Positions 905 to 47,724 of a stretch of 48,031 bases of DNA are shown here, piece after piece. Every line of letters begins with the position of its first letter. Position 1 is the first letter of the stretch. The stretch covers positions 1 to 48,031 of the forward strand of contig JAGVVY010000002.1 of NCBI GenBank assembly GCA_018304585.1, written 5' to 3'. A model generated the notes under the pieces. The model did no database searches. It saw nothing but the letters and a program-made list of their open reading frames with translations, and was not told where the DNA came from. A program made the translations under genes and the position numbers. The DNA comes from Candidatus Aenigmatarchaeota archaeon (GTDB lineage Archaea > Aenigmatarchaeota > Aenigmatarchaeia > GW2011-AR5).

Positions 905-1020
905 TTTGCAACCAGCTTTGCACGAAAAGTAGCCAATGAACACAAGATGTTGCGATTTTAGAAAGTCAAAATACAACCGGTTGACCGATTTTGGACTTTA
1001 GGTGCAAAGCCTTTGCAACC
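905..1020. mobile_element. 98-bp MITE with 9-bp target duplication
   Basis: The element spans 914-1011. Its ends are inverted repeats (AGCTTTGCAC at the left, GTGCAAAGCC at the right), matching at 14 of the outer 17 positions. It is flanked by an identical 9-base direct repeat, TTTGCAACC, at 905-913 and 1012-1020, the footprint expected of transposition. A nearly identical copy lies at 19194-19291, and the same termini bound the DISARM element at 34314-45201. It is too short to code for anything and must move in trans. Confidence 0.85.
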
Positions 1021-18851: not shown

Positions 18852-18983
18852 TGCGTATCCGTTTAATTTTTCGCATGGAACAGCTTGTTATAAAACTGTT
18901 TTTGCGCTATGGGCACGCTTAACCGATGCAACGCAATCGGCTGTATTATATGCGCATTTATGCAACAAAGCCTCACAGCGCGG

Positions 18984-19028
18984 GTTTGCACAAAAAGCAG
19001 AAGCGGACACAAGATGCTGTGATTGCAT
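18984..19028. repeat. diverged partial copy of the small element family
   Basis: The stretch GGTTTGCACAAAAAGC through ACACAAGATGCTGTGAT aligns with the left half of the 98-bp MITE (914-1011), sharing the terminal TTTGCAC and the ACACAAGATG core with several substitutions. No right end is visible, so it looks like an old truncated copy. It is one of three related segments packed into 18984-19291. Confidence 0.5.
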
Positions 19029-19086
19029 TGTCATAGGATACGCCCGTTGGGCTCCCCGGACTTATAATCGGGCAAACTTCCGCACA

Positions 19087-19183
19087 GCTTTGTTTAATAA
19101 ATGGTTTTCTCACACAAGATGTTGCGTTTTGATAAACCTATGGCACAGCCTGTTGTGGCTGTAAGGGATTATTTAAACAAAGC
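19087..19183. mobile_element. 97-bp inverted-repeat element, second family (copy A)
   Basis: Ends are inverted repeats, GCTTTGTTTAATAA at the left and TTATTTAAACAAAGC at the right. A near-identical copy occurs at 47544-47636. The interior shares ACACAAGATGTTGCG with the 98-bp MITE, suggesting common descent. No coding potential and no clear target duplication. Its right end is ten bases from the next element. Confidence 0.75.
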
Positions 19184-19193
19184 CTGGGTCTTG

Positions 19194-19291
19194 GGCTTTG
19201 CACGAAAAGTAGCCAATGAACACAAGATGTTGTGATTTTAGAAGGTCAAAATACAACCGGTTGACCGATTTTGGACTTTAGGTGCAAAGCC
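19194..19291. mobile_element. 98-bp MITE, copy 2
   Basis: Same length and nearly the same sequence as 914-1011, differing at only a few positions, with the same GCTTTGCAC/GTGCAAAGC inverted ends. The flanking 9-mers do not match, so the original target duplication has been lost or the copy arose by recombination. It ends seven bases before the ATG of the secreted protein, so the element supplies that gene's immediate upstream sequence. Confidence 0.85.
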
Positions 19292-23168: not shown

Positions 23169-23268
23169 TATAGTCCCCAAGGAACTAATACATGGTCAAG
23201 CAACGCTTGACCTGTACAGGAGAACCATGGTTCTCCAAGTACCTTGCTTGTTTCCTTGGAGAACTATA
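23169..23268. repeat. 100-bp nested hairpin element with TATAGT/ACTATA ends
   Basis: Outer arms TATAGTCCCCAAGGAA and TTCCTTGGAGAACTATA are inverted repeats. Inside are two perfect small hairpins, GGTCAAGC/GCTTGACC and the palindrome GGAGAACCATGGTTCTCC. The right arm plus adjoining bases match the element at 269-318 in inverted orientation. The surrounding intergenic DNA (23049-23401) has no other feature apart from a T/A-rich promoter-like stretch near 23310. Confidence 0.6.
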
Positions 23269-23401
23269 ACGGGTTTTCAAGCCCGATCTTACGGCCCACA
23301 TTAAGGCGGCTTTTTAAATCCTGACGGTTTAAGTTAAGATTAGCCATTATGAGCAGTGCGGTAACGTGCGGCGATGACTTGGTTATGGCTGTGGTGGTGC
23401 A

Positions 23402-24781: not shown

Positions 24782-25299
24782 CGGTTTCTGAACACAACCC
24801 CTTTGCCCACGGCTTTGTGTATCCTCAGCCTTTTCTGGTTAAGCGTGTTGACCTTAGGCGATATTTACCTTTCAAGGAAGAAGACGTTTTTCTTGTGGAC
24901 ATTTTTAACGATTTCAGATTTCGAAAGGAAACGTCTAGACTGTCGGAAGGAAATTATGACTTTGGTGAGGCGGGATTCGACTACTATCTCAAGAATAATG
25001 AAAAGTGGTCTGTAAGATGTAATGTAAGAGTCGATTTTACAAATCACGGAGGTTCCCCGCCTCATGTTAACTTTTATGGTTGGTTAATCGACCCTATAGA
25101 GAGAAGGCAGGAGATAGAACTACCTAAAAATATGCATTTCTTACCTTCCGAAAAACCTGTCTATCTTGGAATTTCCATAAATAAACCATTCGTACAAACC
25201 AAATTTCATGGCGAGCTTATAGAGGCCAGTGGCACATATACTATGGGAACTTTAGCACACTCCTCTATAGAGCTTTTGAAAACGCTGCCTAAACGGTGA
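24778..25299 (+). CDS. hypothetical protein, 173 aa
   Basis: Soluble mixed alpha/beta protein with many aromatic residues (FVYPQPFLVKRVDLRRYLPF, VNFYGWLIDPIERRQEIELP). No signal peptide or known motif. The lower GC content than the flanking backbone suggests recent acquisition. The last 11 bases overlap the 3' end of the convergent transposase remnant, so the insertion may have replaced the original C-terminus. Product unknown. Confidence 0.6.
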   Translation: MTVSEHNPFAHGFVYPQPFLVKRVDLRRYLPFKEEDVFLVDIFNDFRFRKETSRLSEGNYDFGEAGFDYYLKNNEKWSVRCNVRVDFTNHGGSPPHVNFYGWLIDPIERRQEIELPKNMHFLPSEKPVYLGISINKPFVQTKFHGELIEASGTYTMGTLAHSSIELLKTLPKR

Positions 25300-26468
25300 T
25301 TTTTAACTCTTCTACTTCCTGATTCACCACGCAGATATTATGGCAAAGTATCTTCAACAGAACCTCGTTCAATTGCGCTGTTTCCGTTTTGCTTCGCAGG
25401 CTGCCACCGAACTTGCTCTTTATCATGTGGAATGTCGTTTCCACGTTGCTTCGTTTGTGGTAGTGCTGGGAAAACTCCTCGTGCCTGTACAGGAAGTAGT
25501 GGTATAGCCTCTTCCATATCCTCGGCTTGAAGCCATCCGCGTTGTTGTTCTTCTTGAAGGGTATGAACGGCACGGCGCCGAGTTCCTCCGCCAGCCTCAG
25601 GTTCTTCAGCGACAGGTAAGCCTTGTCTGCCGACTTCCATCAGTTCAGGAAAATGTTTTCCGTCATTGCCATAACCGTCCGACATCACAAGGCTCGTCAC
25701 CACGTTGGTCTTGACGCCGACCATCACGTGCGCCTTGAACCATACGCGCTTTGTCTTGTCGCTCCCATGCCTGAAGTCATACCATCGCCCGAACCGGCTC
25801 GTGGAAAAGCCGGAGGAGTCCATGGCGAACTGCGTCTCCACGCTCCTGAGCGGGAGCGATGATTTCTCCACGAGTTCCATGAGAACGGGCGTCACGTCCT
25901 TTCTCTGCATGAAATGACCCACGGAAGCGAAGGACGGGGCTTTCCCGATGTGTCCATCCTCTTTCGCTTCCCGCAGGTATGTCATGAACCTTCTGAGGGA
26001 GAACGTGGAATAAACCTTCAGGGCGGACGCAAAGGTCATGTCCCGCATGGACAGCATTGGCCTGCCGGAGGCTTGTTCTGGCTCTGGAATATAACCGCAA
26101 AGATCGCCGAGAAGGTTCATGAAGTTCTCCTTCTCGTTCGCCTGCGCCTTGTCGTAAGCCGGCCAATTCTGCGGATATGAAAGCCTGATGCTTTTAGTCA
26201 CCGTCAGGTTGCCGTCCTTGTCGACTTCCCGCCGGAGCGTGAACTCGACGGCATAAATATGCTTGCACTTTTCCTTGAAGAATTCGTAGTCCGGACACGT
26301 GCATTTTGGCTCGCTCCTGAAGCCCTCGAAGACCACCCTATAGTAGATGTGCCTTGTCTGGGACGGCACGTGCCAGCCGTCCAGAGCCTTCTTCAGCCTG
26401 CTCTTCTGGGCTATTATCGCCCCTCTCATTACCCTTCTTTCCATCTGATATTTTTCCATACTGTACAC
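25289..26468 (-). pseudogene. SWIM-DDE transposase, frameshifted (copy 1)
   Basis: N-terminal two thirds in one frame: a SWIM zinc motif (CTCPDYEFFKEKCKH), then the first DDE Asp in FAMDSSGFSTSRFGRW. After about 25640 the frame shifts; the remainder (FIPFKKNNNADGF, then YHKRSNVETTFHMIKSKF) carries the IS4-superfamily Y(2)R(3)E(6)K signature. Together they cover roughly 390 aa. The related remnant at 34337-35581 shares the whole architecture. I see no terminal inverted repeats at either side, so the element's limits are unknown. Confidence 0.82.
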
Positions 26469-26544
26469 CTCTTTTCTGTATCCATTTTTGTATACATATT
26501 GAACATAGAAATCTACTTAAATCCATGTATTCATAATTGTATAC

Positions 26545-34304: not shown

Positions 34305-34330
34305 CGGCATTCAAGCTTTGCACTTAAAGT
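34305..34330. repeat. left target duplication and terminal inverted repeat of the DISARM element
   Basis: The 9-mer CGGCATTCA (34305-34313) is followed by AGCTTTGCACTTAAAGT (34314-34330). The 17-base terminus matches the inverted right end of the 98-bp MITE at 15 of 17 positions and the inverted right end at 45201 at 14 of 17. Confidence 0.85.
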
Positions 34331-34336
34331 GAATAT

Positions 34337-35581
34337 TCACCCAACTTTAGGTTCAGTTTCTTTACTTTCGGTGCAGAAATCAGGCTTGATTCCGAGTTCA
34401 TGCATTTCCTGAATAACGACACAGATGTTATGGCAAAGGACTTTTAACAGAACTTCGTTAACCTGTGCCGTATGGTTCTTGCTTCTCACCGAGTCTCCGA
34501 ATTTAGACTTAATCATGTGGAATACAGTTTCCACGTTTGAACGCTTATGGTATTGCTGTAGGAATTCTTCACGGTTGAACATGAAGTAGTGATACATTTT
34601 GCCCCAAAGATTCGAGCCTCTTTGTTTTCCTGTGGCATTGCTCTTGAAAGGTATGAATGCCGTGCCGCCACAGTTGGCTACAGCTTCTATATTTTCTCTT
34701 GACGAATAAGCTTTGTCGGCAGAGACTTCATTTATTGTGAAGTTCTGTGCAGTCTTCTCAACAAGCTCACCGAATTCTTTACTGTCATGAGAGTATGCTT
34801 GTGTTATCTTAACGCCTGTGACGATATGAGTTTTAACGCCGTTCATTAGATGGCACTTCACCCATACTCTGCTGTCAACTTCTTTGCCATACTTGAATGA
34901 AAACCATCTGTCAAAACGTGACGTTCCGAATCCAGAACTGTCTACGGCGAAATCTGTCTCTATAGATTTCAAAGGCAAAGCGGAAACTTCTATCAGTTCA
35001 AGAAGAACGGATGTTGTCTCTTCTTTGTTAAGTATTTTGATACGGCATTGAAATGAGGCTTATGTGCGATGTGGTCTCTCTCCTTTGCTATTTGATAGTT
35101 CATTGCTGTTCTTCTGCTTGACAGAGTAGAATAGACTTTCAGAGCCGAGCAGAATATAACATCACATAGAGGCAGTGACGGTCTGCCGAATTCATAAGGC
35201 TTGTAAATGTCGTCTGTGAGATTGTAAAGAAGCTTCATGAAAAGTTCTGTTTCCTTGGTCGGTGCTTTGTTGTAGGCTGTCCAGTTCTGTGGATAGGTCT
35301 TCTTTACGATATATTCCACAGCGCCATCTGATGAATTTTCTTGTTTATCGTAAATTCAACAGCCCATATATGCTTGCATTTTATTCCGAGTAGCCCTTTG
35401 TTTCAAAGTCTGGGCATTCACAAATCGCTTTGTAGTTTTGATATGTAACAAGGTAAGCACCTGTACATGTCTGCGAAGGCACAACATAACCGCCTTTCTC
35501 TCTTTTCATTATTCGGCATGTCAGTCCTATCTGCATTCCTTTCTTCTGACGGATTTCGTTTGCCTCGTTTTGTGCCCGCAT
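34337..35581 (-). pseudogene. SWIM-DDE transposase, multiply frameshifted (copy 2)
   Basis: Three frame fragments give a protein colinear with copy 1 at 25289: MRAQNEANEIRQKKGM with CECPDFETKG, then (after a shift at about 35383) CKHIWAVEF, then VKKTYPQNWTAYNKAP to about 35000, then FAVDSSGFGTSRFDRWF with the first DDE Asp, VSADKAYSSRENIEAV, and YHKRSNVETVFHMIKSKF with the Y(2)R(3)E(6)K signature. Its C-terminal end lies just inside the left terminal repeat, as expected of an insertion sequence end. At least two frameshifts make it inactive. Sequence is clearly diverged from copy 1, so they are not recent duplicates. Confidence 0.85.
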
Positions 35582-35714
35582 ATCATCACCTAGTATGTTA
35601 TTAGTTAATAATATATTAGTTAGTAAAGTATTCAAGCTTATTAGTTGATATGTTATTTTGAAATAATGATTTACAAATAAATACCTGGATAATCAATAAG
35701 TTAAAGGTGACGAT

Positions 35715-35867
35715 GTGGGGAAAATAAAAATTAGCGTAGATGGTTTTGAATGTGAACGCTGCGGTCATAAATGGATCTCAAGGATAAAAGAATCCCCGCG
35801 CGTTTGTCCTAAGTGTCATTCTCCTTATTGGGATAAGCCAAAGCGCGGGAAAAAACAGGTGCTATAA
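35715..35867 (+). CDS. 50-aa zinc-ribbon protein preceding the DISARM methyltransferase
   Basis: GTG 35715 follows an AGGTGA ribosome binding site; the ATG two bases earlier leads to an immediate stop. The product has CERCGHKW and CPKCHSPYWDKP, two CxxC pairs forming a zinc ribbon, and a basic tail. The last base overlaps the ATG of the methyltransferase, so it is translationally coupled as the first gene of the DISARM operon. Small ribbons of this type occur in many archaea; a regulatory role for the operon is inference. Confidence 0.75.
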   Translation: MGKIKISVDGFECERCGHKWISRIKESPRVCPKCHSPYWDKPKRGKKQVL

Positions 35868-36781
35868 TGAAAGCAGTATCATTATTTTCTGGTTGCGGTG
35901 GTACGGATCTTGGTTTGAAAAATGCTGGGATAGATGTCATATTTGCAAATGATATTAGTAGTTGGGCATGTAAAACTTATGAAGAAAATCTGGGAGCAAT
36001 AGTTCATTCAGACATTAAAAAAATAGAATCTTTCCCAAGAGCTGACTTGTTAGTTGGGTGTTTCCCGTGTCAAGGCTTCAGTTTAGCACGAAGAAAAACT
36101 GGACCTGATCCTAGAAATCTTTTGTATTTGGAATTCGAACGCGCGCTTTCTCAAGTCAAGCCAGATTTCTTTGTAACTGAGAATGTGAAAGGACTGATTA
36201 GTCAGAATGGTATAGCGACATTTCAGGACATGCTGCTGAAATTTGGCAGAAGATATGACGTTTCATGGAAAGTTATTAACGCAAAGGATTATGGAGTTCC
36301 TCAGGATAGGGAAAGGGTTTTCATTGTAGGTGTAAAAAAATCTTTGAAGGAAAAATTTGTCTTCCCAGAACCAACACATGGTCCAGGAAAAAAGAAATAC
36401 GTTAACCTCAGAAAATCTATAGGTAACATGCCAAAACCAAAAGAAGACGAAATTTACAATAAAGGCTTCTCATGGCATTATCTTTCAAGAAATAGGAAAA
36501 GAAAATGGGATGATGTGAGTTTTACGATACAAGCTAGCGGTAGGCATGCACCACTTCATCCAAGTGGACCCCAGCCTGTGCATGTCGGAAAAGACAAATT
36601 CATTCTTCCATCTCCGGAAGAGAAGCATAGAAGACTTTCATATAAAGAGTGTGCTGTGATTCAAAGCTTTCCTAGAAGGTTCAAGTTTTATGGGCATTTA
36701 GAAGCAAAATACATGCAAATAGGAAATGCAGTACCACCCAAGATTTCTGAAATGATTGTTAGCGCCATTAAAGAATTATAA
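35867..36781 (+). CDS. drmMII: DNA cytosine-5 methyltransferase (DISARM DrmMII)
   Basis: 304 aa, complete: motif I SLFSGCGGTDLGLKNAG, motif IV VGCFPCQGFSLARRK with the catalytic Cys, motif VI VTENVKGLI, motif VIII PQDRERVFIVGV, motif IX/X SYKECAVIQSFP and MQIGNAVPPK. In class 2 DISARM the host-marking enzyme is a 5mC methyltransferase, and the next four genes are the other members, which assigns this role. The recognition sequence cannot be read from the protein. It is unrelated in detail to the methyltransferase half of the Vsr fusion at 26726. Confidence 0.9.
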   Translation: MKAVSLFSGCGGTDLGLKNAGIDVIFANDISSWACKTYEENLGAIVHSDIKKIESFPRADLLVGCFPCQGFSLARRKTGPDPRNLLYLEFERALSQVKPDFFVTENVKGLISQNGIATFQDMLLKFGRRYDVSWKVINAKDYGVPQDRERVFIVGVKKSLKEKFVFPEPTHGPGKKKYVNLRKSIGNMPKPKEDEIYNKGFSWHYLSRNRKRKWDDVSFTIQASGRHAPLHPSGPQPVHVGKDKFILPSPEEKHRRLSYKECAVIQSFPRRFKFYGHLEAKYMQIGNAVPPKISEMIVSAIKEL

Positions 36782-36804
36782 AGGTAAGTTTTACTATATT
36801 GAAC

Positions 36805-39138
36805 ATGCTAGTGGCACCAAAACTGACTCAAGTAGATTTTCGTTTCGATGGTCGCAAAATAGAGTTTCATAGTATTGAAAAAGATGCGTTAGAATTGGCA
36901 ACACTAACTGCCAATAAAGGATCTAAAATCGCTATTTTTTACCCTAGTGAGACATATGATTGCTTGTTGCCTTTTTGTCTAGAATTACTTTACCAAGGCA
37001 GATTTATGCGTAAAGAAAAGAGATCCGTCATCCTTTTTGCTGGGCGACTCGCTCCGAAACTAAGAGATTTGTACCTGTACCTGAACTATGGACCAGAAAG
37101 TATCGCATCTTCTTTATTCGGAATGTCTTACTTAACAAGACATGGCATCAGCAGTATAAAGCCTGTAGGTCTGAAAAAATTAGTTCCTGATAGATTCATA
37201 ATTTCAAACAACTATTCAGTATTGCCACAACAAAGTCTTGCAAAAGACTTGAATAGCGCAATAATAATTTCACCGTCTCATGGAATGACTTTCAGGATCC
37301 TAAAGGATATAAAATGGTGTGACGAAAATGGCATTGGAAACATAGTTCTGTTTGATAATTTCCCTACCTATAGAAAACTAAAGCTTTACACAAGTCTTGG
37401 TTTTGCAATTTACGGCTGGGAAACATGTGACATAGAATCGCGAACTGACGAAAACAGCAACACCACACCTGTTTCTAATTCTAAGTCATTGAGCACATTT
37501 GGACATTCTTCTCAAATAACTGTAATAGATGCTATTGACCATGAAACAGATAAGCAACTTGAGGGGCTTTCACAAGCAATTGAAAAACTAAGAAAATTCT
37601 CAGATGACGCTGATAATAACCCCACCGAATATATAATTTTCCGGGAGGCTTCATACATACTTCGAAGATTAGAATCCTTAACCGTACCGTTGTATGACTA
37701 CGATCAGTCTGATATTCAAACATTTAGACTAGGGCTAATTGAGAGAATAAACTCAATCATAGAGCTTTGTGATAACATTGGTACGAAGGCTCCTGCTGAA
37801 ATTAATGAAATTAAGGTATATTTGTCTGAAGCAAGATCGCACCTTACGAGCCGAAATCCTAAATTCAGTTGTCTACTCAACGAAATCGGAGAATGTATTA
37901 ACAGAAACGAGAAAGCCATATTATTCCTTGGATCTGATCAAGATAAGTTTGCTTTTCTGAAAGTTTTGGAGAAGAGAAATAGACATATAGCACAGCAAAT
38001 TCCAAATAGCAATATTGTTTTTGAGACGTTGTATTGTAACTATAAAAAATATGTTGGCAAAGATTTTGATAGGGCAATATTTTGCACTTACTTACCGCTA
38101 TCAAGAAATAGACTGATTGATAAAATCCAGGCCAAAGAAAAAAAGATGATTCTCTATACAATAGAAAAAAGGACCTTTAATTTTTTCAATAAATTACGTA
38201 CAAAATTTGAACAGGTTTTTTTCACCGCAGCAGCAAGAGAGGATTTAAGACAATTCTTGATGTCGCCCGATGAATCATACAAACAAAAATCAATAAAATT
38301 TATAGGTGAACTTGAAAAGGATGTTGATGAGTTGAAACATGTTAGTGAGGAGAAACCAACAAGTATAATTTCATTATTTACTGATACGGAAGATTTAGTT
38401 GAACCTGAACCTGTTTTTTATGACAAAGTACATTTAGAGGGCGAAGAAAGTGGGAAAAAATTATTCATAGACGGTATGGCTATTGGATTATATGAAGCTG
38501 GTACACTCTTAACAAAATCTGAAAGAACTGTACAGGTTGTAACAGAATCTGATGAAGTAAGATACAAAAAAGCTGCTGAATTGAAGATCGGTGATCAACT
38601 TTTACTCATTAACAGACAGACAAAAAAGACGCTTAATGAATTAATACTTGAAAAGGCTAACGAATATCCAAAACTTCAGATTATTAAGATGCTTGTCGAC
38701 ATTTGGGTGTCGGAATTAAGAAAAGGTATGAGGACCAATAATGACAGCGATTTAAGCCTTCTTAGAAAACTCCAAGAGTCTGGGTCCAGAATAAAGCATG
38801 ACGGGACGATAAAGCTCTGGTGTGAAGGTTATGTAATTGGTCCCAGAGATCGTGATGATGTTATTAGGATTGCAGATGCGTACAGCAGTGCTTCAATAAG
38901 AGCCAACTATAAAGGAATAAACACATCAATTAAAAATCTTAGAGGTCTTAGACGAAGTATAGTAAGAAGATTGAAAAATGCCCTTGTCGAAGGGGAAATA
39001 GATGAAATTGAAAAACTTGGAGTTAATATTGATGACTTTGAACAGTACGTGGAAATGTTTGAAGTTGCATCTATAGAAAAACGCAATAACATTTCAGTTG
39101 CTAGACTAGATACAGTTGATGGTACTTATGAATTATAA
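36805..39138 (+). CDS. drmE: DISARM protein DrmE (by context)
   Basis: 777 aa from ATG 36805 (a TTG at 36799 would add two). No classic enzymatic motif is obvious; segments such as SKIAIFYPSETYDCLLPFCL, SAIIISPSHGMTF and RAIFCTYLPLSRNRLIDKIQ suggest RecA-like alpha/beta domains in which helicase motifs have decayed. Position between the 5mC methyltransferase and DrmA, and size near 780 aa, match DrmE, the class 2-specific DISARM component of unknown biochemistry. The end overlaps DrmA. The name rests mainly on context. Confidence 0.72.
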   Translation: MLVAPKLTQVDFRFDGRKIEFHSIEKDALELATLTANKGSKIAIFYPSETYDCLLPFCLELLYQGRFMRKEKRSVILFAGRLAPKLRDLYLYLNYGPESIASSLFGMSYLTRHGISSIKPVGLKKLVPDRFIISNNYSVLPQQSLAKDLNSAIIISPSHGMTFRILKDIKWCDENGIGNIVLFDNFPTYRKLKLYTSLGFAIYGWETCDIESRTDENSNTTPVSNSKSLSTFGHSSQITVIDAIDHETDKQLEGLSQAIEKLRKFSDDADNNPTEYIIFREASYILRRLESLTVPLYDYDQSDIQTFRLGLIERINSIIELCDNIGTKAPAEINEIKVYLSEARSHLTSRNPKFSCLLNEIGECINRNEKAILFLGSDQDKFAFLKVLEKRNRHIAQQIPNSNIVFETLYCNYKKYVGKDFDRAIFCTYLPLSRNRLIDKIQAKEKKMILYTIEKRTFNFFNKLRTKFEQVFFTAAAREDLRQFLMSPDESYKQKSIKFIGELEKDVDELKHVSEEKPTSIISLFTDTEDLVEPEPVFYDKVHLEGEESGKKLFIDGMAIGLYEAGTLLTKSERTVQVVTESDEVRYKKAAELKIGDQLLLINRQTKKTLNELILEKANEYPKLQIIKMLVDIWVSELRKGMRTNNDSDLSLLRKLQESGSRIKHDGTIKLWCEGYVIGPRDRDDVIRIADAYSSASIRANYKGINTSIKNLRGLRRSIVRRLKNALVEGEIDEIEKLGVNIDDFEQYVEMFEVASIEKRNNISVARLDTVDGTYEL

Positions 39139-42100
39139 CAGGCAAAAACTTAGAGAAAAGATGATAGATCTGATAATGCAGTCAGTCATATCAGATGCAT
39201 CTGGAGAAGGCAAGCACGTTGTCGATATAAGACCCTCACAAATATTTTTTGTAGGGAATCTTAGTACCAAACCAAGGCTAGGAGAATTACAAAAAGTTGC
39301 GACAAAACTTTCTCCAAACTCCATTGGAATTGAAATATTACTCCCTCTTGATGTGCCAGAAGGCTCTACATTGACAATCTCTCCAAGCGGAGCATTTTAT
39401 TATAGAGTTTTTCCTGACTACAAATCTCAAAAATCATATTCTGACAGACTTTCATCTAAAAAGAGAAAATCTGTGGACTTCATTGAAAGATTCAAGAAAA
39501 GGACCTTCAGCAAAAGTTTCTCTATAGACGTTCAAGATACAATAAGAAAATGCGAAACTGATACAGAAGTTAACTTTCCATTTAATGATTTTTGTAGTGA
39601 CATTTGGAATGAAATAAAACAAGAAAAGGACTTATTTTCACCAATATCAATTGGTAACAAACCACCATCCATCAATATTCCAATTGATGTTATGAAAACT
39701 GAAGCTGATTTCGAAAGTTTTATCAACGGAAGAAAACAAGAATTGGATTGTAACTGGGGGTTTGAAATTAATATAAAGTGTTTCAAAACTGTATCCGGCT
39801 ATAGAATGGTAATTCTGTTTGTAAATAATAAGGATTATATAGAAGACCAAAAGATCAAAAAAAGCATTGAAAATTACATTTTTGAATCAAAAATAAATAT
39901 AAAATCTGTTGTGCCGCTAAAGGCATTCATTTTGGACCAGTTAGAAAAGAACTATAAACATGATAGGACTGTCGAAGCAGCCGGTATAAATTGTAGCTTT
40001 ACAAAACTGTCGACGCATGAAATAGAGACAAACCACGTCCCAATTTTTAGACAACCAAGGCGAGTAGCCCGAAATATGGGTGGAATTAAGTTTAAAGATT
40101 TAAATGAAAGACCTATTCAAGTCTTGAATTCTCTGAAAGCTTCTATGAAATCAAGCTACAACATATTTAGTCAAAAATTTGCGATGAGAGCGAAAACGCA
40201 TGAAGAAAAAGAAGAGTTCGAAAAAGACATGAATCTAATAAAAAATGAAATTGAAAGATTTGAAAATGGCATAGAACATATTAACAAATACAAAGATTCT
40301 TTTCGTGCATTTCAACTAATGAATCAAACTTTTGAAATGTCGGTAAAAGAAAAGTATGACTCATGGTACCCGTTCCAAATAGTTTTCATAACGTCGCTTG
40401 TGCCAGATGTCATAGCAGAACGGCACCCTGAAGCTAAAAATTTCAGAAATCATGCTGATCTTTTATATTTTCCAACTGGTGGCGGTAAGACAGAAGCATT
40501 TTTAGGGTTAGCCATATTTCAGGCCTTTTATGATAGGATATCTGGAAAGAAGTTTGGAGTCTCAGTGATTACAAAATTTCCTCTCAGAATGCTTTCACTA
40601 GACCAAATGCGCAGGATAGCAGAAATTTTTGCCAAGGCTGAAACCATAAGAAAATCCGAGCCGGACATAGGCAAAGAAGAATATCATCCATTCAGTGTTG
40701 GGTATTTCGTAGGTGCAAAAGTTACTCCTAACAAACTTATCGAATGGGATTATACACAAGGTCCTCGCGGCGGCTACAAAAATATACTTGAAGATTTGGA
40801 ATCCGATAAGGAAAAACTCTCAAAATTTCAATTGATTTCTAAATGCCCCTTTTGCGAAAGCAACGTAGACATGGTAGCCGATAAAGCGAGAATTAGACTT
40901 GCTCATGTATGCATAAATAAAAATTGCGTTGGAGAGCTTCCAATTTACATAACCGATACTGAGATATTCAGATATGTACCTACGTTTATTGTTGGTACAC
41001 TTGACAAAATGGCGTCGATTGGCCAACAAATAAACTTTAGAAATATACTTGGTGCAATAAGCCATGAGTGTGAGTTACATGGCTTCAGTAGCTCAATTGT
41101 TTGTACTGAAGATAAATCGGGATGCAAATCTGAACTAAAACCGGTTCCTAAATACGACTACTCACCCTCATTACTAATTCAAGATGAAATGCATCTTGTT
41201 AGAGAAACATTAGGGTCATTTGACTCTCATTATGAGACTGCAATAGCACACCTAATAAGTGTGTTTTCGGACAAAAACAAAAGAATTAAAATTGTATGTG
41301 CAACTGCTACATTGTCTGACAAAACTTATAATGACCATGTAAATCACTTGTATCTTCGAGATGCCATAAAATTTCCTGCTGCACTAGAAATTTTTACGGA
41401 TGAAAGCAATGACACGGCAAGAATGATAGTTGGGTTGATGCCTCATTCAAAAACTCTGATCAATAGCATGGAAGAAATCATAATTAGTATGTCAAACACA
41501 GTCCAGACTTGGGTAAATGACACGTCTACATTAAAATCACTTTTAAGCGAAGATTATCCAGATGAAACCATTCAAAAAGAGCTGAGAGATTTTTGGACTA
41601 TACTTACTTATCATATTAAGAAAAACGATGCTTACCAACTTTCTAGGTCTGTGTCAACAAGAATAAACGAAACTCTCCAGAATGAACTGCAATTAAAGAC
41701 CCTTCGACGCAAGACACTAACTGGCGACGTGAATTTTAAAGAAATAAAACAAGTAATGAATAAAGTCAAAGAAGAAAAAAACTATGAGAACGCCTTGGAT
41801 TTGATAATTGCAACTAGCATAATATCCCACGGCGTGGATATAGACGCACTTAATCTAATGACTTTTATGGGCATGCCAGGAAACAATGCAGAATATATTC
41901 AAGCTTTAAGCAGAGTTGGCAGACAGCGCACAGGTTTGGTCTTCGCTGTTTTTAATCCAACACGAGAAAAAGATAGAAGCTATTTTAAACACTTCGAAAA
42001 GTTCCATCAACTGTCAGATTTACTTATAGAACCAACACCTATACAGCGATGGTCAAAGAAAGTAGTTGAGAAAACCTGCCCTGGAATTTTTTGTGGGGCG

Positions 42101-42505
42101 ATATACAGTTACTTTGATTTTATTGTTAATAGTGCACAAAAATTAATTAAGCCAAATAAGCTTAATTTTCCAAGAAACTTTAAAGAAGTTTTAAGATCTG
42201 GAGTAATAAAAGATGAAGAGATAATAGAATTTATCAAGAAATGCTATACTGATGGGACGGTGAATTCACCACCTGATTTTATAGAAAAAGTTAAAAGTAC
42301 AGCATCCGAATGTGTAAATTCTATAATAAGACTTGACATTAGCACAATACCACCACACCATATTATTGGAACATTCCTTTCTCCTCAGCCTCTGCAAAAT
42401 TTGAGAGACGTTGAAGAAGGTGTTTTTGTAGCACTTACAGAAAAGTCTATCAGTATTCTTAGAAAAGGCATAATAAAGGAAACTGACTTTACGGAGGAAG
42501 ACTAA
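39128..42505 (+). CDS. drmA: DISARM helicase DrmA
   Basis: 1,125 aa from ATG 39128; ATG 39119 and TTG 39116 are alternative starts. SF2 helicase: Walker A YFPTGGGKTEAFLGLA (about residue 455), Ib VITKFPLRMLSLDQMRR, Walker B SLLIQDEMHLVRETLGSF (DEMH box), motif III CATATLS, and the C-terminal domain IIATSIISHGVDIDALNL plus YIQALSRVGRQRTGLVF. A zinc-like CPFCESN...CINKNCVG insertion lies between. DrmA with DrmB forms the core DNA-sensing and translocating complex of DISARM. Ends immediately before the DrmB ATG. Confidence 0.92.
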   Translation: MNYNRQKLREKMIDLIMQSVISDASGEGKHVVDIRPSQIFFVGNLSTKPRLGELQKVATKLSPNSIGIEILLPLDVPEGSTLTISPSGAFYYRVFPDYKSQKSYSDRLSSKKRKSVDFIERFKKRTFSKSFSIDVQDTIRKCETDTEVNFPFNDFCSDIWNEIKQEKDLFSPISIGNKPPSINIPIDVMKTEADFESFINGRKQELDCNWGFEINIKCFKTVSGYRMVILFVNNKDYIEDQKIKKSIENYIFESKINIKSVVPLKAFILDQLEKNYKHDRTVEAAGINCSFTKLSTHEIETNHVPIFRQPRRVARNMGGIKFKDLNERPIQVLNSLKASMKSSYNIFSQKFAMRAKTHEEKEEFEKDMNLIKNEIERFENGIEHINKYKDSFRAFQLMNQTFEMSVKEKYDSWYPFQIVFITSLVPDVIAERHPEAKNFRNHADLLYFPTGGGKTEAFLGLAIFQAFYDRISGKKFGVSVITKFPLRMLSLDQMRRIAEIFAKAETIRKSEPDIGKEEYHPFSVGYFVGAKVTPNKLIEWDYTQGPRGGYKNILEDLESDKEKLSKFQLISKCPFCESNVDMVADKARIRLAHVCINKNCVGELPIYITDTEIFRYVPTFIVGTLDKMASIGQQINFRNILGAISHECELHGFSSSIVCTEDKSGCKSELKPVPKYDYSPSLLIQDEMHLVRETLGSFDSHYETAIAHLISVFSDKNKRIKIVCATATLSDKTYNDHVNHLYLRDAIKFPAALEIFTDESNDTARMIVGLMPHSKTLINSMEEIIISMSNTVQTWVNDTSTLKSLLSEDYPDETIQKELRDFWTILTYHIKKNDAYQLSRSVSTRINETLQNELQLKTLRRKTLTGDVNFKEIKQVMNKVKEEKNYENALDLIIATSIISHGVDIDALNLMTFMGMPGNNAEYIQALSRVGRQRTGLVFAVFNPTREKDRSYFKHFEKFHQLSDLLIEPTPIQRWSKKVVEKTCPGIFCGAIYSYFDFIVNSAQKLIKPNKLNFPRNFKEVLRSGVIKDEEIIEFIKKCYTDGTVNSPPDFIEKVKSTASECVNSIIRLDISTIPPHHIIGTFLSPQPLQNLRDVEEGVFVALTEKSISILRKGIIKETDFTEED

Positions 42506-44338
42506 ATGAAATTCGAGGATCGAGTACCACGCGGTAAAAGCCAAGTGCTTTTTAATTTTCTGCCAGGGGCTTTGATTGACTTCCCAACGACTAATATTGT
42601 TGCAAAAGTTGCTGCGTGGCAATCAGATAAAATAGAATCAAAATCCAACAAACGTATACTAGACAAGATTTATTCGCTTATGACGGAAAAATACATGGCC
42701 GTGGACGATAGATTCCCAAAAAAGCCCGACGTAAGTCAATTTAGATTTGGCGAGCCGATATTAGTCGAGTCTGAAATATTTCCACTGGTTTTCAAATCGC
42801 AAACTACGAAAAAGGTTTATTTTTTCTATAATTTAGATGATCTTGATAGATTTTTGGCTAGCTGGAACAAATCTGAACAACTTGTACAAATTGACCTAAT
42901 TTTTATCGACACCCATGGAGATGTGGACAGATTACATCCAACACAAGATGCTAGAAAAAAGAACATAAAGCTAGAGAAGATCGGTAAAAGCCAAGCAGGG
43001 CTTCATTGGATTGATATGGACACCGATGAGGACCTTGGCCAAATATGGCACTTTATGAACGGAAAAAGAATAAGTGTCGCAACACCAGTAAGAGCTAAGA
43101 TAACTTATTTGCCTCAAATAATTACCCTTGTTAATATTCGAGATTATCTTGATTTTGAACAAAGAGAAAAAGAAATATTGATGATCGCAATTATATCGAA
43201 ATACTTAGATCATTTGAATGAATTTTCTGACATGACATTTGACAAAATAGTAAGAGAGGTAAGATATACCAGGGAAATGGGAAGTAATGATATAGAAAAG
43301 CTACTGGCTAAGCTTGGAGTTGATAAAAATAATTTACCTGATGATAAGAAAAAAGAAATTGTAAAGTTTTCTCAGTCTTCAGGAAATATAGGCAGCAGAA
43401 TAAAAGCTGTGTTGGACCAAGACAAAGAATTTATCCGCGGTTTGGACGTTGCAAATATTTACGACAGAGTTTATGAGTACCTTACAACTATAGAATCTCG
43501 TGGAAGAGAAAATTTAGATGAAGCAATAGATTCAGCATTGCAAGACAAAAGCAAATTCATACAGTTTAAAAAACGCATGGATTTAATAGGCGTTAAAAAA
43601 ATTACATATGTTGAAGACATACCAATTCAAAATGTTGCATATGGTTACGTAAGAGGTAGCTTCAATACAAAAGAGACAATACTACGTGCATTTCCTTTTG
43701 ACAGATTCGATAACAAGCGCATTCCTATTTATCTTACTAATACAACAACCGAGGGACTTGTATTAGAACTTGACAGAACGAAAATACTGAAGTGGCTTAA
43801 TAATAATGGCATCGTAGAAACTAAAAACATGAGTGATGAAGAGGAGAAGTTGTGGTTCCTCAATAATATCGACAGTTCAAAAATATCAACCTTCTCAGGA
43901 ACTAAAGAAGCTGGCGTTACAAGAGAAGTATTTCATTTAATACACAGTATTTCTCATGCATTGATCAAAAAAATCCCTGAACAGGCTGGAATAGGTCTAG
44001 ACTCTATTGGCGAAATCATATTCCCCAACATACCTGCAATACTTATTTTTTCGAGAGAGAGCGGAGACTTTCGTATTGGTGCATTGCATGACTTATTCCG
44101 TAATCGATTATATCCATGGGTCGATGTTACAATAAAAGACATAGGTAAATGTGTTTATGACCCTGTCTGCTATCACGACATTGGTTCATGTCATAGCTGC
44201 TTATACTTAAATGAGATTTCTTGTAGTAATTTCAATCAAGACTTATCAAGGCACTACCTAATTGGAAAAGCTTTCAATGGTAACTTATCAGCTTTTTGGA
44301 AAGATGCCATAAATCAAATAGATAGGGGTGTTTTATGA
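42506..44338 (+). CDS. drmB: DISARM protein DrmB (DUF1998)
   Basis: 610 aa. The C-terminal DUF1998 pattern is clear: FHLIHSISHALIKKIPEQAG, GEIIFPNIPAILIFSRESG, and the Cys cluster KCVYDPVCYHDIGSCHSCLY, followed by CSNF. The N-terminal half carries no named domain. Starts one base after the DrmA stop with a GGAGG ribosome binding site; its end overlaps DrmC by 4 bases. DrmB partners DrmA. Confidence 0.92.
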   Translation: MKFEDRVPRGKSQVLFNFLPGALIDFPTTNIVAKVAAWQSDKIESKSNKRILDKIYSLMTEKYMAVDDRFPKKPDVSQFRFGEPILVESEIFPLVFKSQTTKKVYFFYNLDDLDRFLASWNKSEQLVQIDLIFIDTHGDVDRLHPTQDARKKNIKLEKIGKSQAGLHWIDMDTDEDLGQIWHFMNGKRISVATPVRAKITYLPQIITLVNIRDYLDFEQREKEILMIAIISKYLDHLNEFSDMTFDKIVREVRYTREMGSNDIEKLLAKLGVDKNNLPDDKKKEIVKFSQSSGNIGSRIKAVLDQDKEFIRGLDVANIYDRVYEYLTTIESRGRENLDEAIDSALQDKSKFIQFKKRMDLIGVKKITYVEDIPIQNVAYGYVRGSFNTKETILRAFPFDRFDNKRIPIYLTNTTTEGLVLELDRTKILKWLNNNGIVETKNMSDEEEKLWFLNNIDSSKISTFSGTKEAGVTREVFHLIHSISHALIKKIPEQAGIGLDSIGEIIFPNIPAILIFSRESGDFRIGALHDLFRNRLYPWVDVTIKDIGKCVYDPVCYHDIGSCHSCLYLNEISCSNFNQDLSRHYLIGKAFNGNLSAFWKDAINQIDRGVL

Positions 44339-45090
44339 TGAAGCAATCAAGGATAGATGTGATAGTTAATGCTCTAAAAGTTCTTGATAAAAAGGGCGAA
44401 GTTTCTGGAAGGGATATACTGCGAACACTGGAAAAATTGTGTGATGTGAATGAGCTTCATCTTTATGCAATGTTGAATGAACAGATAATAAAATCTATAA
44501 AAGTTTCCAGAGACATAAAGGACTATAAATTCAAAATCCTAAAGGATGGACTTTCTAACAAGCAAAAAATTTCAAATATTTTTGAAGATCTAATAGCTGA
44601 TGATTTCGTGCTTATTGCTAGTTACCCACCCGGAAAGATCGAAGAAAAATATAAGGTTGAACAATTATATCCTAGATTATGCAGACTAATTTTATCAGCA
44701 AAAAGAAGTCTCGTACTTATCAACCCTTATTTTGATAAAAAGGGTCTTGATAAATTATTACCCTACATAGATGGTGCTGCTAAAAATGGCGTAAAAATAA
44801 GATTAATTTGTAGAAAAGGGAAGGAACCTGACGCCTTAATAGGAGCAATAAAAAGCAGAATTGGAGATAATTTAGAGTTGAAAGAGTTTGGAGGGTTGGG
44901 ATATTTTCTTCATGCAAAGTGCATAATTGCAGATGATAAGTTGGCTTACATAGGCAGCGCCAATATAACTGGAACTTCTTTGGGCTCAAATCTTGAACTT
45001 GGAGTTCTTTTCACTGGCAGCAAAGTAAAACAGTTATCACAATTCCTAGACAGGGTACTAAGCTTCGAGGGCGACGATGAAGATGGTTGA
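44335..45090 (+). CDS. drmC: DISARM phospholipase D-like protein DrmC
   Basis: 251 aa. One PLD-type HxK(x4)D motif, LHAKCIIADDKLAYIGSANI, near residues 196-215 with the following GS/N residues, as in single-motif PLD nucleases that dimerise. The N-terminal 90 residues are helical (ILRTLEKLCDVNELHLYAML). ATG 44335 overlaps the DrmB stop, preceded by GGGGTG. DrmC is the PLD member of the DISARM core and is dispensable in some studied systems. Between its stop and the element's right end (45091-45201) I see no gene. Confidence 0.92.
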   Translation: MMKQSRIDVIVNALKVLDKKGEVSGRDILRTLEKLCDVNELHLYAMLNEQIIKSIKVSRDIKDYKFKILKDGLSNKQKISNIFEDLIADDFVLIASYPPGKIEEKYKVEQLYPRLCRLILSAKRSLVLINPYFDKKGLDKLLPYIDGAAKNGVKIRLICRKGKEPDALIGAIKSRIGDNLELKEFGGLGYFLHAKCIIADDKLAYIGSANITGTSLGSNLELGVLFTGSKVKQLSQFLDRVLSFEGDDEDG

Positions 45091-45184
45091 TAAGGTTAGT
45101 AAGATCAAAGAAAGCTACATAATGTCAAGAAGGACCCTCGTTATTGTGTAGAGAAGCTAAGGATACGATACAAAGCAGGTCTAT

Positions 45185-45210
45185 AGTTTAGGTGCAAAGC
45201 CCGGTATTCA
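45185..45210. repeat. right terminal inverted repeat and target duplication of the DISARM element
   Basis: AGTTTAGGTGCAAAGCC (45185-45201) is the inverted counterpart of the left end, and the following CGGTATTCA (45202-45210) matches the left-flank 9-mer at 8 of 9 positions. TTTAGGTGCAAAGCC is identical to the right end of the 98-bp MITEs over 15 bases. Confidence 0.85.
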
Positions 45211-45343: not shown

Positions 45344-47167
45344 ATGAAAGAAAAGAATGCGCACAGCGCGCAGAACGTACAGAAGATTGTACCCGATACC
45401 AGCGTGATAATATCCGGCATACTGTCGGATCTGGTGAAGAAAGGCGAATTGAAAGGGATAGAGATTATAATTCCAGAATTCGTTGTAGAGGAGCTCCGCT
45501 CCCAGGCATCCCGCGGCCGCGAGATCGGCTTCAAGGGTCTGAGGGAACTGAAGGAAATCCGCGCCCTTGAGGAAGAAAAGAAGCTTACTGTCATAAGAAC
45601 AGGCAGACGCCAGACAATGGAAGAAATCCAGCTTGCCAAGTACGGCAGGATAGACGGACTCATAGTTGACGTCGCCAAACAGGAAAAAGCGGTTCTTTAC
45701 ACTTCTGATCGTGTCCAGCATCTGGTCGCTGAAGCCGAAGGTGTAGTTTCGGTATTCTTTGAGCCTTACCAGAAAAAGGAGACGGTTCTTGCAAAGATGC
45801 TCACAGACGATACAATGAGCTTGCATCTCAAGGAAAAATGCGCGCCTATGGCCAAGCGGGGAAGACCTGGCGAAATGAAGCTTGTGAAAATATCAGACGA
45901 TCTTCTTACAGAAGAGCAAATGGAATCTATAATAAAAGAGGTCATGGATGCATGCCGGTACGAGGAGGATTCGTTCCTTGAAGTGGACGGTCATACAGCC
46001 AGCGTAGTTCAGATGGGCAATATGCGTATTGCAATAGCAAGGCCGCCGTATTCTGACGGCATAGAAATCTCGGTTGTAAGGCCAACAGCGAAGCTTACGC
46101 TTGACGATTACAAGCTTTCTGAGAAACTGAAGAAGCGTCTCGAAGGCAAAGCCGAAGGTATACTGCTCTCCGGCCCCCCAGGATCGGGAAAAAGCACTTT
46201 CGCCGCGTCATTGGCGGAGTTCTACGAAAGCAAAGGCAAGATAGTAAAGACCATGGAATCGCCGCGTGATCTTCAGGTGAGACCGGAAATAACGCAGTAC
46301 ACAAAATTGAAAGGAAGCTTTGAGAATACGGCAGACATGCTTCTGCTTGTTCGTCCGGATTATGTAATCTTTGATGAAGTCCGCAAGACCAACGACTTCC
46401 ATGTTTTTTCGGACATGCGCCTTGCAGGCATAGGCATGATAGGCGTTGTGCATGCAACAGATCCGGTAAGCTCGGTTCAGCGTTTCATTGGCAGAGTTGA
46501 AATGGGCATGATACCGCATATCGTAGATACGGTCGTGTATATCAAGGACGGCAAGGTAGGCAAGATATATACCCTCTCACTCATAGTCAGGACGCCTACC
46601 GGCATGACGGAAGCCGATTTGGCAAGGCCGATAGTGGAAGTACGCGACTTTGAAAGCAATGCCCTTGAATATGAAATATACAGTTACGGTGAAGAGAACG
46701 TCATAATACCTGTCAAGGAAGAGGCAACTTCTGCAGTGCAAGAATTGGCTAAGAAACAAATTCTTGCAGAATTGCGCAAATACGACAGGAACGCAGAAGT
46801 CGAATTCCTTTCTGACAACAGCATAACGGCATACGTAGAGAACGATGTGATGGCAAGAATAATCGGCAAAGAAGGCCGCAACATCAAGGAACTTGAAGAA
46901 AAACTTGGCTTGAGGATAGACGTTTCTCCAAGAGTCGCCACTATGGGCAAGGAAGCCAAGTTTGTCTACGATGAATCGGGCGGATACATACTCTTTAACT
47001 TTAACGAGCGGCTTCAGGGCCATGTAGCGAATTTTCACGTTGACGGCGAGTATCTGTTCTCGGCGACCATAGGGAAAGGAGGAAGCGTCCGGGTTTCAAA
47101 AACAAGCGACACGGGCAAGGAACTAATGAAGGCATTGGTCAAGGGAAGCCTCACTACATTCGTGTAG
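45344..47167 (+). CDS. PIN domain and ATPase protein (PINA-like, with KH domain)
   Basis: 607 aa. PIN nuclease-like domain first (VPDTSVIISGIL, IIPEFVVEELRSQ, YGRIDGLIVDVA with acidic residues), then a VirB11/PilT-like ATPase (Walker A LLSGPPGSGKSTFAASLA at about 270, IFDEVRK Walker B, GVVHATDPVSSVQRFIGR), and a KH domain (MARIIGKEGRNIKELEEKLG). This is the layout of archaeal PINA, a hexameric ATPase reported to drive Holliday junction branch migration. It starts 134 bases right of the DISARM element with a GGTGA ribosome binding site five bases upstream. Confidence 0.92.
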   Translation: MKEKNAHSAQNVQKIVPDTSVIISGILSDLVKKGELKGIEIIIPEFVVEELRSQASRGREIGFKGLRELKEIRALEEEKKLTVIRTGRRQTMEEIQLAKYGRIDGLIVDVAKQEKAVLYTSDRVQHLVAEAEGVVSVFFEPYQKKETVLAKMLTDDTMSLHLKEKCAPMAKRGRPGEMKLVKISDDLLTEEQMESIIKEVMDACRYEEDSFLEVDGHTASVVQMGNMRIAIARPPYSDGIEISVVRPTAKLTLDDYKLSEKLKKRLEGKAEGILLSGPPGSGKSTFAASLAEFYESKGKIVKTMESPRDLQVRPEITQYTKLKGSFENTADMLLLVRPDYVIFDEVRKTNDFHVFSDMRLAGIGMIGVVHATDPVSSVQRFIGRVEMGMIPHIVDTVVYIKDGKVGKIYTLSLIVRTPTGMTEADLARPIVEVRDFESNALEYEIYSYGEENVIIPVKEEATSAVQELAKKQILAELRKYDRNAEVEFLSDNSITAYVENDVMARIIGKEGRNIKELEEKLGLRIDVSPRVATMGKEAKFVYDESGGYILFNFNERLQGHVANFHVDGEYLFSATIGKGGSVRVSKTSDTGKELMKALVKGSLTTFV

Positions 47168-47246
47168 CTCTTTAAAAACTTTACCTTCAAATATGAAATA
47201 CAGAAAATAAATGAAACTCACTACATTCGTGTAGCTCTTTAAAAAC
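47150..47246. repeat. 30-bp direct repeat of the PINA gene end
   Basis: The last coding bases and stop of the PINA gene plus 12 bases beyond (47150-47179) recur exactly at 47217-47246, 67 bases downstream. The spacing sequence is AT-rich and non-coding. A local duplication at the border of the hairpin-rich region is the simplest explanation. Confidence 0.85.
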
Positions 47247-47472: not shown

Positions 47473-47543
47473 TTTCAGTATTTGCCGAAAAAAGACCGTG
47501 TGTTGTGTCGGAGATTGATTATCCCCGCAAATCCGCTATTCAC

Positions 47544-47636
47544 GCTTTGTTTAATAAATGGTTTTCTCACACAAGATGTTGCGTTTTGATAAATCTATGG
47601 CACAGCCTGTTGTGGCCATAAGGGATTATTTAAAGC
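47544..47636. mobile_element. inverted-repeat element, second family (copy B)
   Basis: Nearly identical to 19087-19183 throughout, but the right end lacks four bases of the inverted repeat. Flanking ATTCAC and GTGAAT extend the inverted repeat outward so that ATTCACGCTTT pairs with AAAGCGTGAAT. No target duplication is seen. It is followed by two hairpins (47644-47664 and 47671-47687) of unknown role. Confidence 0.75.
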
Positions 47637-47724
47637 GTGAATTCCACCGGTCTCGGACCGGTGGTGGGGTACGGGGTGGAACCCCGTCGTTCTAATTCAT
47701 TGAAGAACAAAAAGGATGGGGAGC

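Follow-up and report, generated by a model that had tools for sequence, protein, structure and literature searches.

IS903, a member of the IS5 family on bacterial plasmids, makes a 9-bp target duplication. Its end GGCTTTGTTGAATAAATC, which adjoins the annotated IS903 transposase, shares GGCTTTG with the elements described here and has GCTTTGTTNAATAAAT in common with one of their MITE subfamilies, M2. Both systems have a DDE transposase; in contrast to IS903, the present transposase bears a SWIM zinc-finger signature at its N terminus, and its elements carry cargo and in several cases iterated end motifs. Prokaryotic MITEs, as described for Sulfolobus and haloarchaea in the part of the review PMC10969869 considered here, are likewise short, multicopy and geneless, with inverted ends and a target duplication, and are presumed to be moved in trans. 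The same part names no DPANN archaeon among the archaeal hosts, adding "several other archaeal genomes", and makes no mention of MITEs in which two kinds of ends enclose a conserved double dyad. It describes the Correia elements of Neisseria as MITEs that contain a binding site for the host protein IHF, whereas the dyads reported below have no known binder and form a symmetric pair. Passenger-carrying DNA transposons likewise hold a transposase and cargo between inverted ends, although in the present family a single transposase lies near one end and the cargo often consists of defence genes. Composite DNA transposons with passenger genes were undetected in archaea in a 2019 survey (PMC6563490), and the present family offers a concrete vehicle for defence-gene mobility there. 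Searches of the literature for transposons of DPANN archaea and for SWIM transposases gave no relevant paper.

We analysed a window of 48,031 nucleotides, contig C29 of an incomplete draft assembly (825,503 bases, 33 contigs, 82.5% complete) of a Candidatus Aenigmatarchaeota archaeon. A preliminary description had read a 98-bp repeat in this window as a MITE, present in two nearly identical copies. The two copies, here called M1, differ at 3 of 98 positions, and the 9-bp duplication claimed for copy 1 is exact (Table 1). The inverted right end GGCTTTGCACCTAAAGT was confirmed to match the left end AGCTTTGCACTTAAAGT of a cargo transposon with DISARM genes (34314-34330) at 15 of 17 positions.

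Table 1. Positions of repeats, dyads and transposon features in the window, and defence cargo of the transposon family
Feature	Position or element	Strand
Left target duplication TTTGCAACC of M1 copy 1	905-913	.
MITE M1 copy 1, 98 bp; left end AGCTTTGCACGAAAAGT, inverted right end GGCTTTGCACCTAAAGT	914-1011	+
Dyad box 1, CACAAGATGTTGCG, element position 28 of M1 copy 1	941-954	+
Dyad box 2, degenerate in M1, TACAACCGGTTGAC, element position 59	972-985	+
Right target duplication TTTGCAACC of M1 copy 1	1012-1020	.
Possible MITE remnant, weak; inverted right end GGCTTTGTTGCATAAAT	18882-18972	+
Diverged MITE-like unit, CACAAGATGCTGTG at element position 29	18980-19076	+
MITE M2, 99 bp, ends GCTTTGTTTAATAAAT / GCTTTGTTTAAATAAT; core as in M1; without target duplication	19086-19184	+
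MITE M1 copy 2; without target duplication; end 7 bp 5' of the ATG of a LamG-domain gene	19194-19291	+
Second decayed SWIM-DDE transposase; ends not found	25295-26513	-
10.9-kb cargo transposon with DISARM; ends AGCTTTGCACTTAAAGT and inverted GGCTTTGCACCTAAACT	34314-45201	.
SWIM-DDE transposase of the DISARM element; several frameshifts; PF01609 part readable	34337-35640	-
DISARM cargo: C5 methylase, DrmE, helicase, MZB-domain protein, PLD protein	35867-45090	+
MITE M2, right end damaged	47543-47637	+
Type IIG/I-like cargo	G015 (twice), G182, L133, L140, L201	
Type III cargo	L161	
Methylase and Mrr cargo	G137	
D12 methylase and ParB-like protein cargo	L136	
HerA/NurA-like and DruA (Druantia/HerA-NurA-like) cargo	L185	
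DISARM cargo	window element 34314-45201	

A genome-wide search with the 98-mer returned ten copies on eight contigs (E<=3.2e-23), nine of them at 97-100% identity. The mean pairwise difference among eight 98-bp copies is 2.7 bases, a comparison that leaves out the diverged copy on C4 and the damaged copy on C24, the right end of which is 1-2 bases short. A perfect 9-bp duplication in register flanks five of the ten (C29:914, C2, C21a, C16 and C24), and C21b and C4 match at 8 of 9 positions, so that seven copies have a duplication with 0-1 mismatch. In a fixed register such a duplication is expected by chance in about 1e-4 per copy. No 9-bp duplication was found at C14, C3 and C29:19194, the last being flanked by TGGGTCTTG and AGTTTCTAT.

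The orthologous site of the C21b copy is empty in the congener G002, showing a single target ATGGCTTAA, and the filled site in the source genome reads ATGGGTTAA-MITE-GTGGGTTAA. At the C2, C16 and C23 insertion points, the G002 regions that align on both sides leave no space to fit 98 bp, and an insert-free alignment crosses the junction of C24. In the other relatives searched (E<=0.001) the 98-mer was not found, save for one lone 20-bp end. The preliminary description had made its reading depend on duplications at other copies and on the absence of conserved orthologous positions in distant relatives, and both points were borne out. The repeat is shorter than ~500 bp, contains no transposase gene, has inverted terminal repeats whose outermost 9-10 bp are paired, with further pairing inward, and is multicopy, and it shares its type of ends, not their exact sequence, with autonomous elements of 6.75 kb in archaeon GW2011_AR5 (G015) and 3.7 kb in G002. 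Ends, duplications of fixed length, copy number, spread, the empty site and full transposons with like ends show that M1 was recently mobile, a documented case of recent DNA transposition in a tiny-genome archaeon of the DPANN group. We also considered whether the C21b copy breaks a coding gene and rejected this: the rejoined 310-codon frame fuses unrelated frames, and the gene start is apparently downstream of the site.

M1 is accompanied by a second subfamily, M2 (99 bp, eight copies). Four M2 copies have a perfect 9-bp duplication and four have none, giving perfect duplications at 9 of 18 copies for both subfamilies together. Leaving aside the common GCTTTG, the two subfamilies agree at 5 of 17 left-end positions; their cores agree at 34 of 49, above all 20,000 shuffles. 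M1 and M2 represent a testable MITE case of one core enclosed by ends that would differ in specificity. A single M2 copy, which is damaged, occurs in the congener G002. Further diverged units were located at C4:9027, C32:13460 and C16:24854, and two units on C3 and C19 have GCTTTGTTGAAAAACT ends, the C19 unit with a perfect duplication TCAGCGTAA. In G110, which belongs to another family of the class, two identical 88-bp copies have perfect duplications CCAAGTAGA and AGCTAAAAG. The four MITE-like units at 18882-19291 form a row in one orientation directly 5' of the LamG-domain gene, and the gap between M2 and M1 in this row is exactly 9 bp (TGGGTCTTG), neither unit having a target duplication. 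A 99-bp unit in G013 (L205, C60:15018-15116) has GGCTTTGTTTAAAAAGT ends around two long unrelated hairpins, alike in layout and different in sequence.

The common core contains a 14-bp dyad, CRCAAN4TTGYG or a form with 1-2 changes, at element position ~28 in most boxed copies. A second dyad lies at position 59 in M2 and in the C4:9027 type, with a weaker counterpart there in M1. The spacing from dyad to dyad is 31 bp in nearly all units, and the pair is symmetrically placed. A dyad at the first place with one mismatch occurred in <=0.2% of shuffled interiors, and both dyads together in none of 2000. In the window the exact motif is found solely within MITEs, and in the source genome the CACAAGATGYTGYG form occurs outside MITEs at two places, which we took as chance matches in coding sequence. 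The 88-bp copies of G110 contain CACACAAGATGTTGTTG, corresponding to the first dyad.

There is one match to the dyad motif in 126 kb of transposon sequence, in which some elements are counted twice, and the MITE core was not found in the end regions of eight full-length elements. The core is therefore conserved within the MITEs and not parental, and a simple internal deletion of a known parent, with the interior coming from the transposon ends, does not explain it. We infer that the core is ancestral MITE cargo, in which the two dyads would most likely be bound by a dimeric DNA-binding protein of the host. A 46-bp unit (G000 C1:8167-8212, L244) consists of two ends only and has a perfect duplication CATTATTTC, suggesting that ends alone are enough for movement. 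The box is missing from this unit and from the 66-bp units of two further genomes, so movement seemingly does not require it. A role for the core after insertion is possible. More speculatively, and in our estimate rather doubtful, the double dyad may be a functional module that outlives changes of the ends: the lineage would switch host transposase by acquiring new terminal repeats, and the two fixed dyads, about three helical turns apart, would attract a protein of the host or of the element, which would help the transposition complex to assemble or protect nearby genes.

The preliminary description had expected an active SWIM-DDE transposase as parent, now or formerly in this genome. Such a transposase is present in decayed form in the window and intact in relatives, and no intact copy was found in the assembled 82.5% of the source genome. 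Matches to DDE_Tnp_1 in the source genome are the two SWIM-DDE remnants of the window and one fragment on C26, below the cut-off and set aside as a parent. An end scan of the assembly for the M1 type returned no full element besides the DISARM element, whose flanking 9-mers CGGCATTCA and CGGTATTCA differ by one base; in its cargo the helicase has the place of DrmA, the weak MZB-domain protein that of DrmB and the PLD protein that of DrmC. At C12:3194 there is a decayed left end that belongs to the M2-parent type and has its iterated motif. The lone end at C6:2339-2355 was dismissed as an intact parent, being a remnant beside a fragment that resembles MvaI/BcnI by eye. This fragment (L107:1897-2364, on G000 C6) terminates in the lone end ACTTTACGTGCAAAGCC.

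In relatives, intact transposases of ~400-430 aa lie near the right end of cargo-carrying elements that have RGCTTTG ends and are flanked by perfect 9-bp duplications. The transposase was matched in 30 of 195 genomes, and a wider genome scan gave 147 loci; the nearest publicly named relatives of the source genome, recovered by way of the transposase, are Candidatus Aenigmatarchaeota, among them archaeon GW2011_AR5 of the same family as the source. No match was found on plasmids. Six elements of 3.7-6.8 kb with perfect duplications were delimited in relatives. In the wider scan, which did not demand GCTTTG, 16 of 80 kept loci (15 distinct, including three already in the set of six) have perfect duplications and RGCTTTG ends at a length of 2.3-8.2 kb. 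Their hosts are Aenigmatarchaeota, other archaea, Chloroflexota, Acidobacteriota and others. The 6.75-kb element of GW2011_AR5 has ends AGCTTTGCACGTAAAGTCC / GGCTTTGCATTTAAAGTAGCC of the M1 type and the 3.7-kb element of G002 has ends GGCTTTGTTTAAATAA of the M2 type, both with a perfect 9-bp duplication. In several elements the left end contains iterations of the terminal motif at intervals of about 20 bp. A simple cargo-free IS, which the scan would have reported, was not among the elements found.

Recognisable restriction or defence genes, called with PADLOC among other means, are present in 11 of 19 distinct elements including the DISARM element, and the others carry DUFs or genes with no match; our impression is that defence genes are enriched in the cargo. 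The MITE ends match those of a little-known transposon family that carries restriction-modification and DISARM genes in archaea and bacteria. The DISARM element belongs to this family, and the family is broader than was guessed. Six intact transposases reached 94.8-134.9 bits against NF033579 (NCBIfam IS5), below its cut-off of 140, and intact transposases gave 64.6-85.5 bits against DDE_Tnp_1, above the Pfam cut-off of 23. SWIM (PF04434) exceeded its cut-off, before the DDE domain, in P0001 and in three of the six intact relatives, and the C, C, C, H motif is invariant in nine aligned transposases. We call the group IS5-like SWIM-DDE and not IS5, to which it is nearest.

We regard it as very probable that the 98-bp repeat is a MITE moved by the SWIM-DDE transposase of a full-length relative. 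Judging from the terminal sequences, this transposase would recognise the RGCTTTGCACNNAAAGT ends in trans and insert the MITE at a staggered cut, leaving the 9-bp duplication. The ends would decide which transposase acts, M1 and M2 having homologous cores behind what would be two end specificities. The repeat could instead be a structural or regulatory RNA or DNA element, such as a REP-like palindrome or an attC-like site, that is copied in another way, with the 9-bp repeats arising by chance. The repeat indeed folds better than its shuffled versions, both as DNA and as RNA, copies look intergenic, and several sit in palindromes. Against such an origin stand the perfect duplications at half of the M1 and M2 copies, the single target at the empty site, and full transposons that share these ends and this length of duplication; on these grounds we exclude it as highly improbable. 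A preference for insertion into palindromes was also rejected, fold z-scores at 17 sites not differing from those of nearby controls (p = 0.19), with several sites in hairpins. Inverted copies of TTATAGTTCTCCAAGGAAACAAACAAGG at 268-295 and 23242-23269, together with a similar palindrome on contig C17, suggest a separate hairpin repeat family.

Another DDE transposase, for example that of a plain IS5/IS903-type IS, might share the GGCTTTG ends and 9-bp duplications and move the MITEs. The IS903 end of enterobacterial plasmids means that the motif is not unique to SWIM-DDE elements. However, the DDE_Tnp_1 matches of the genome are the two SWIM-DDE remnants and a fragment below the cut-off, and SWIM-DDE elements from the same archaeal family agree with the MITEs in the inner end bases TGCACNNAAAGT and TGTTTAA, making this reading improbable. 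Compatible with movement as MITEs, copies without duplications may derive from MITE-MITE recombination or erosion, the row at 18882-19291 being a recombination product. C14 and C29:19194 are near-identical to other copies yet have no duplications, but no flanks common to the copies point to recombination partners, and we consider the chances of this origin even.

Elsewhere in the window, positions 378-492 hold a tRNA gene detected by Rfam and missed by ARAGORN; it spans 115 bases against a 71-position model and therefore probably has an intron. A 36-bp tandem duplication is present at 1172-1243 and a 30-bp direct repeat at 47150-47246.
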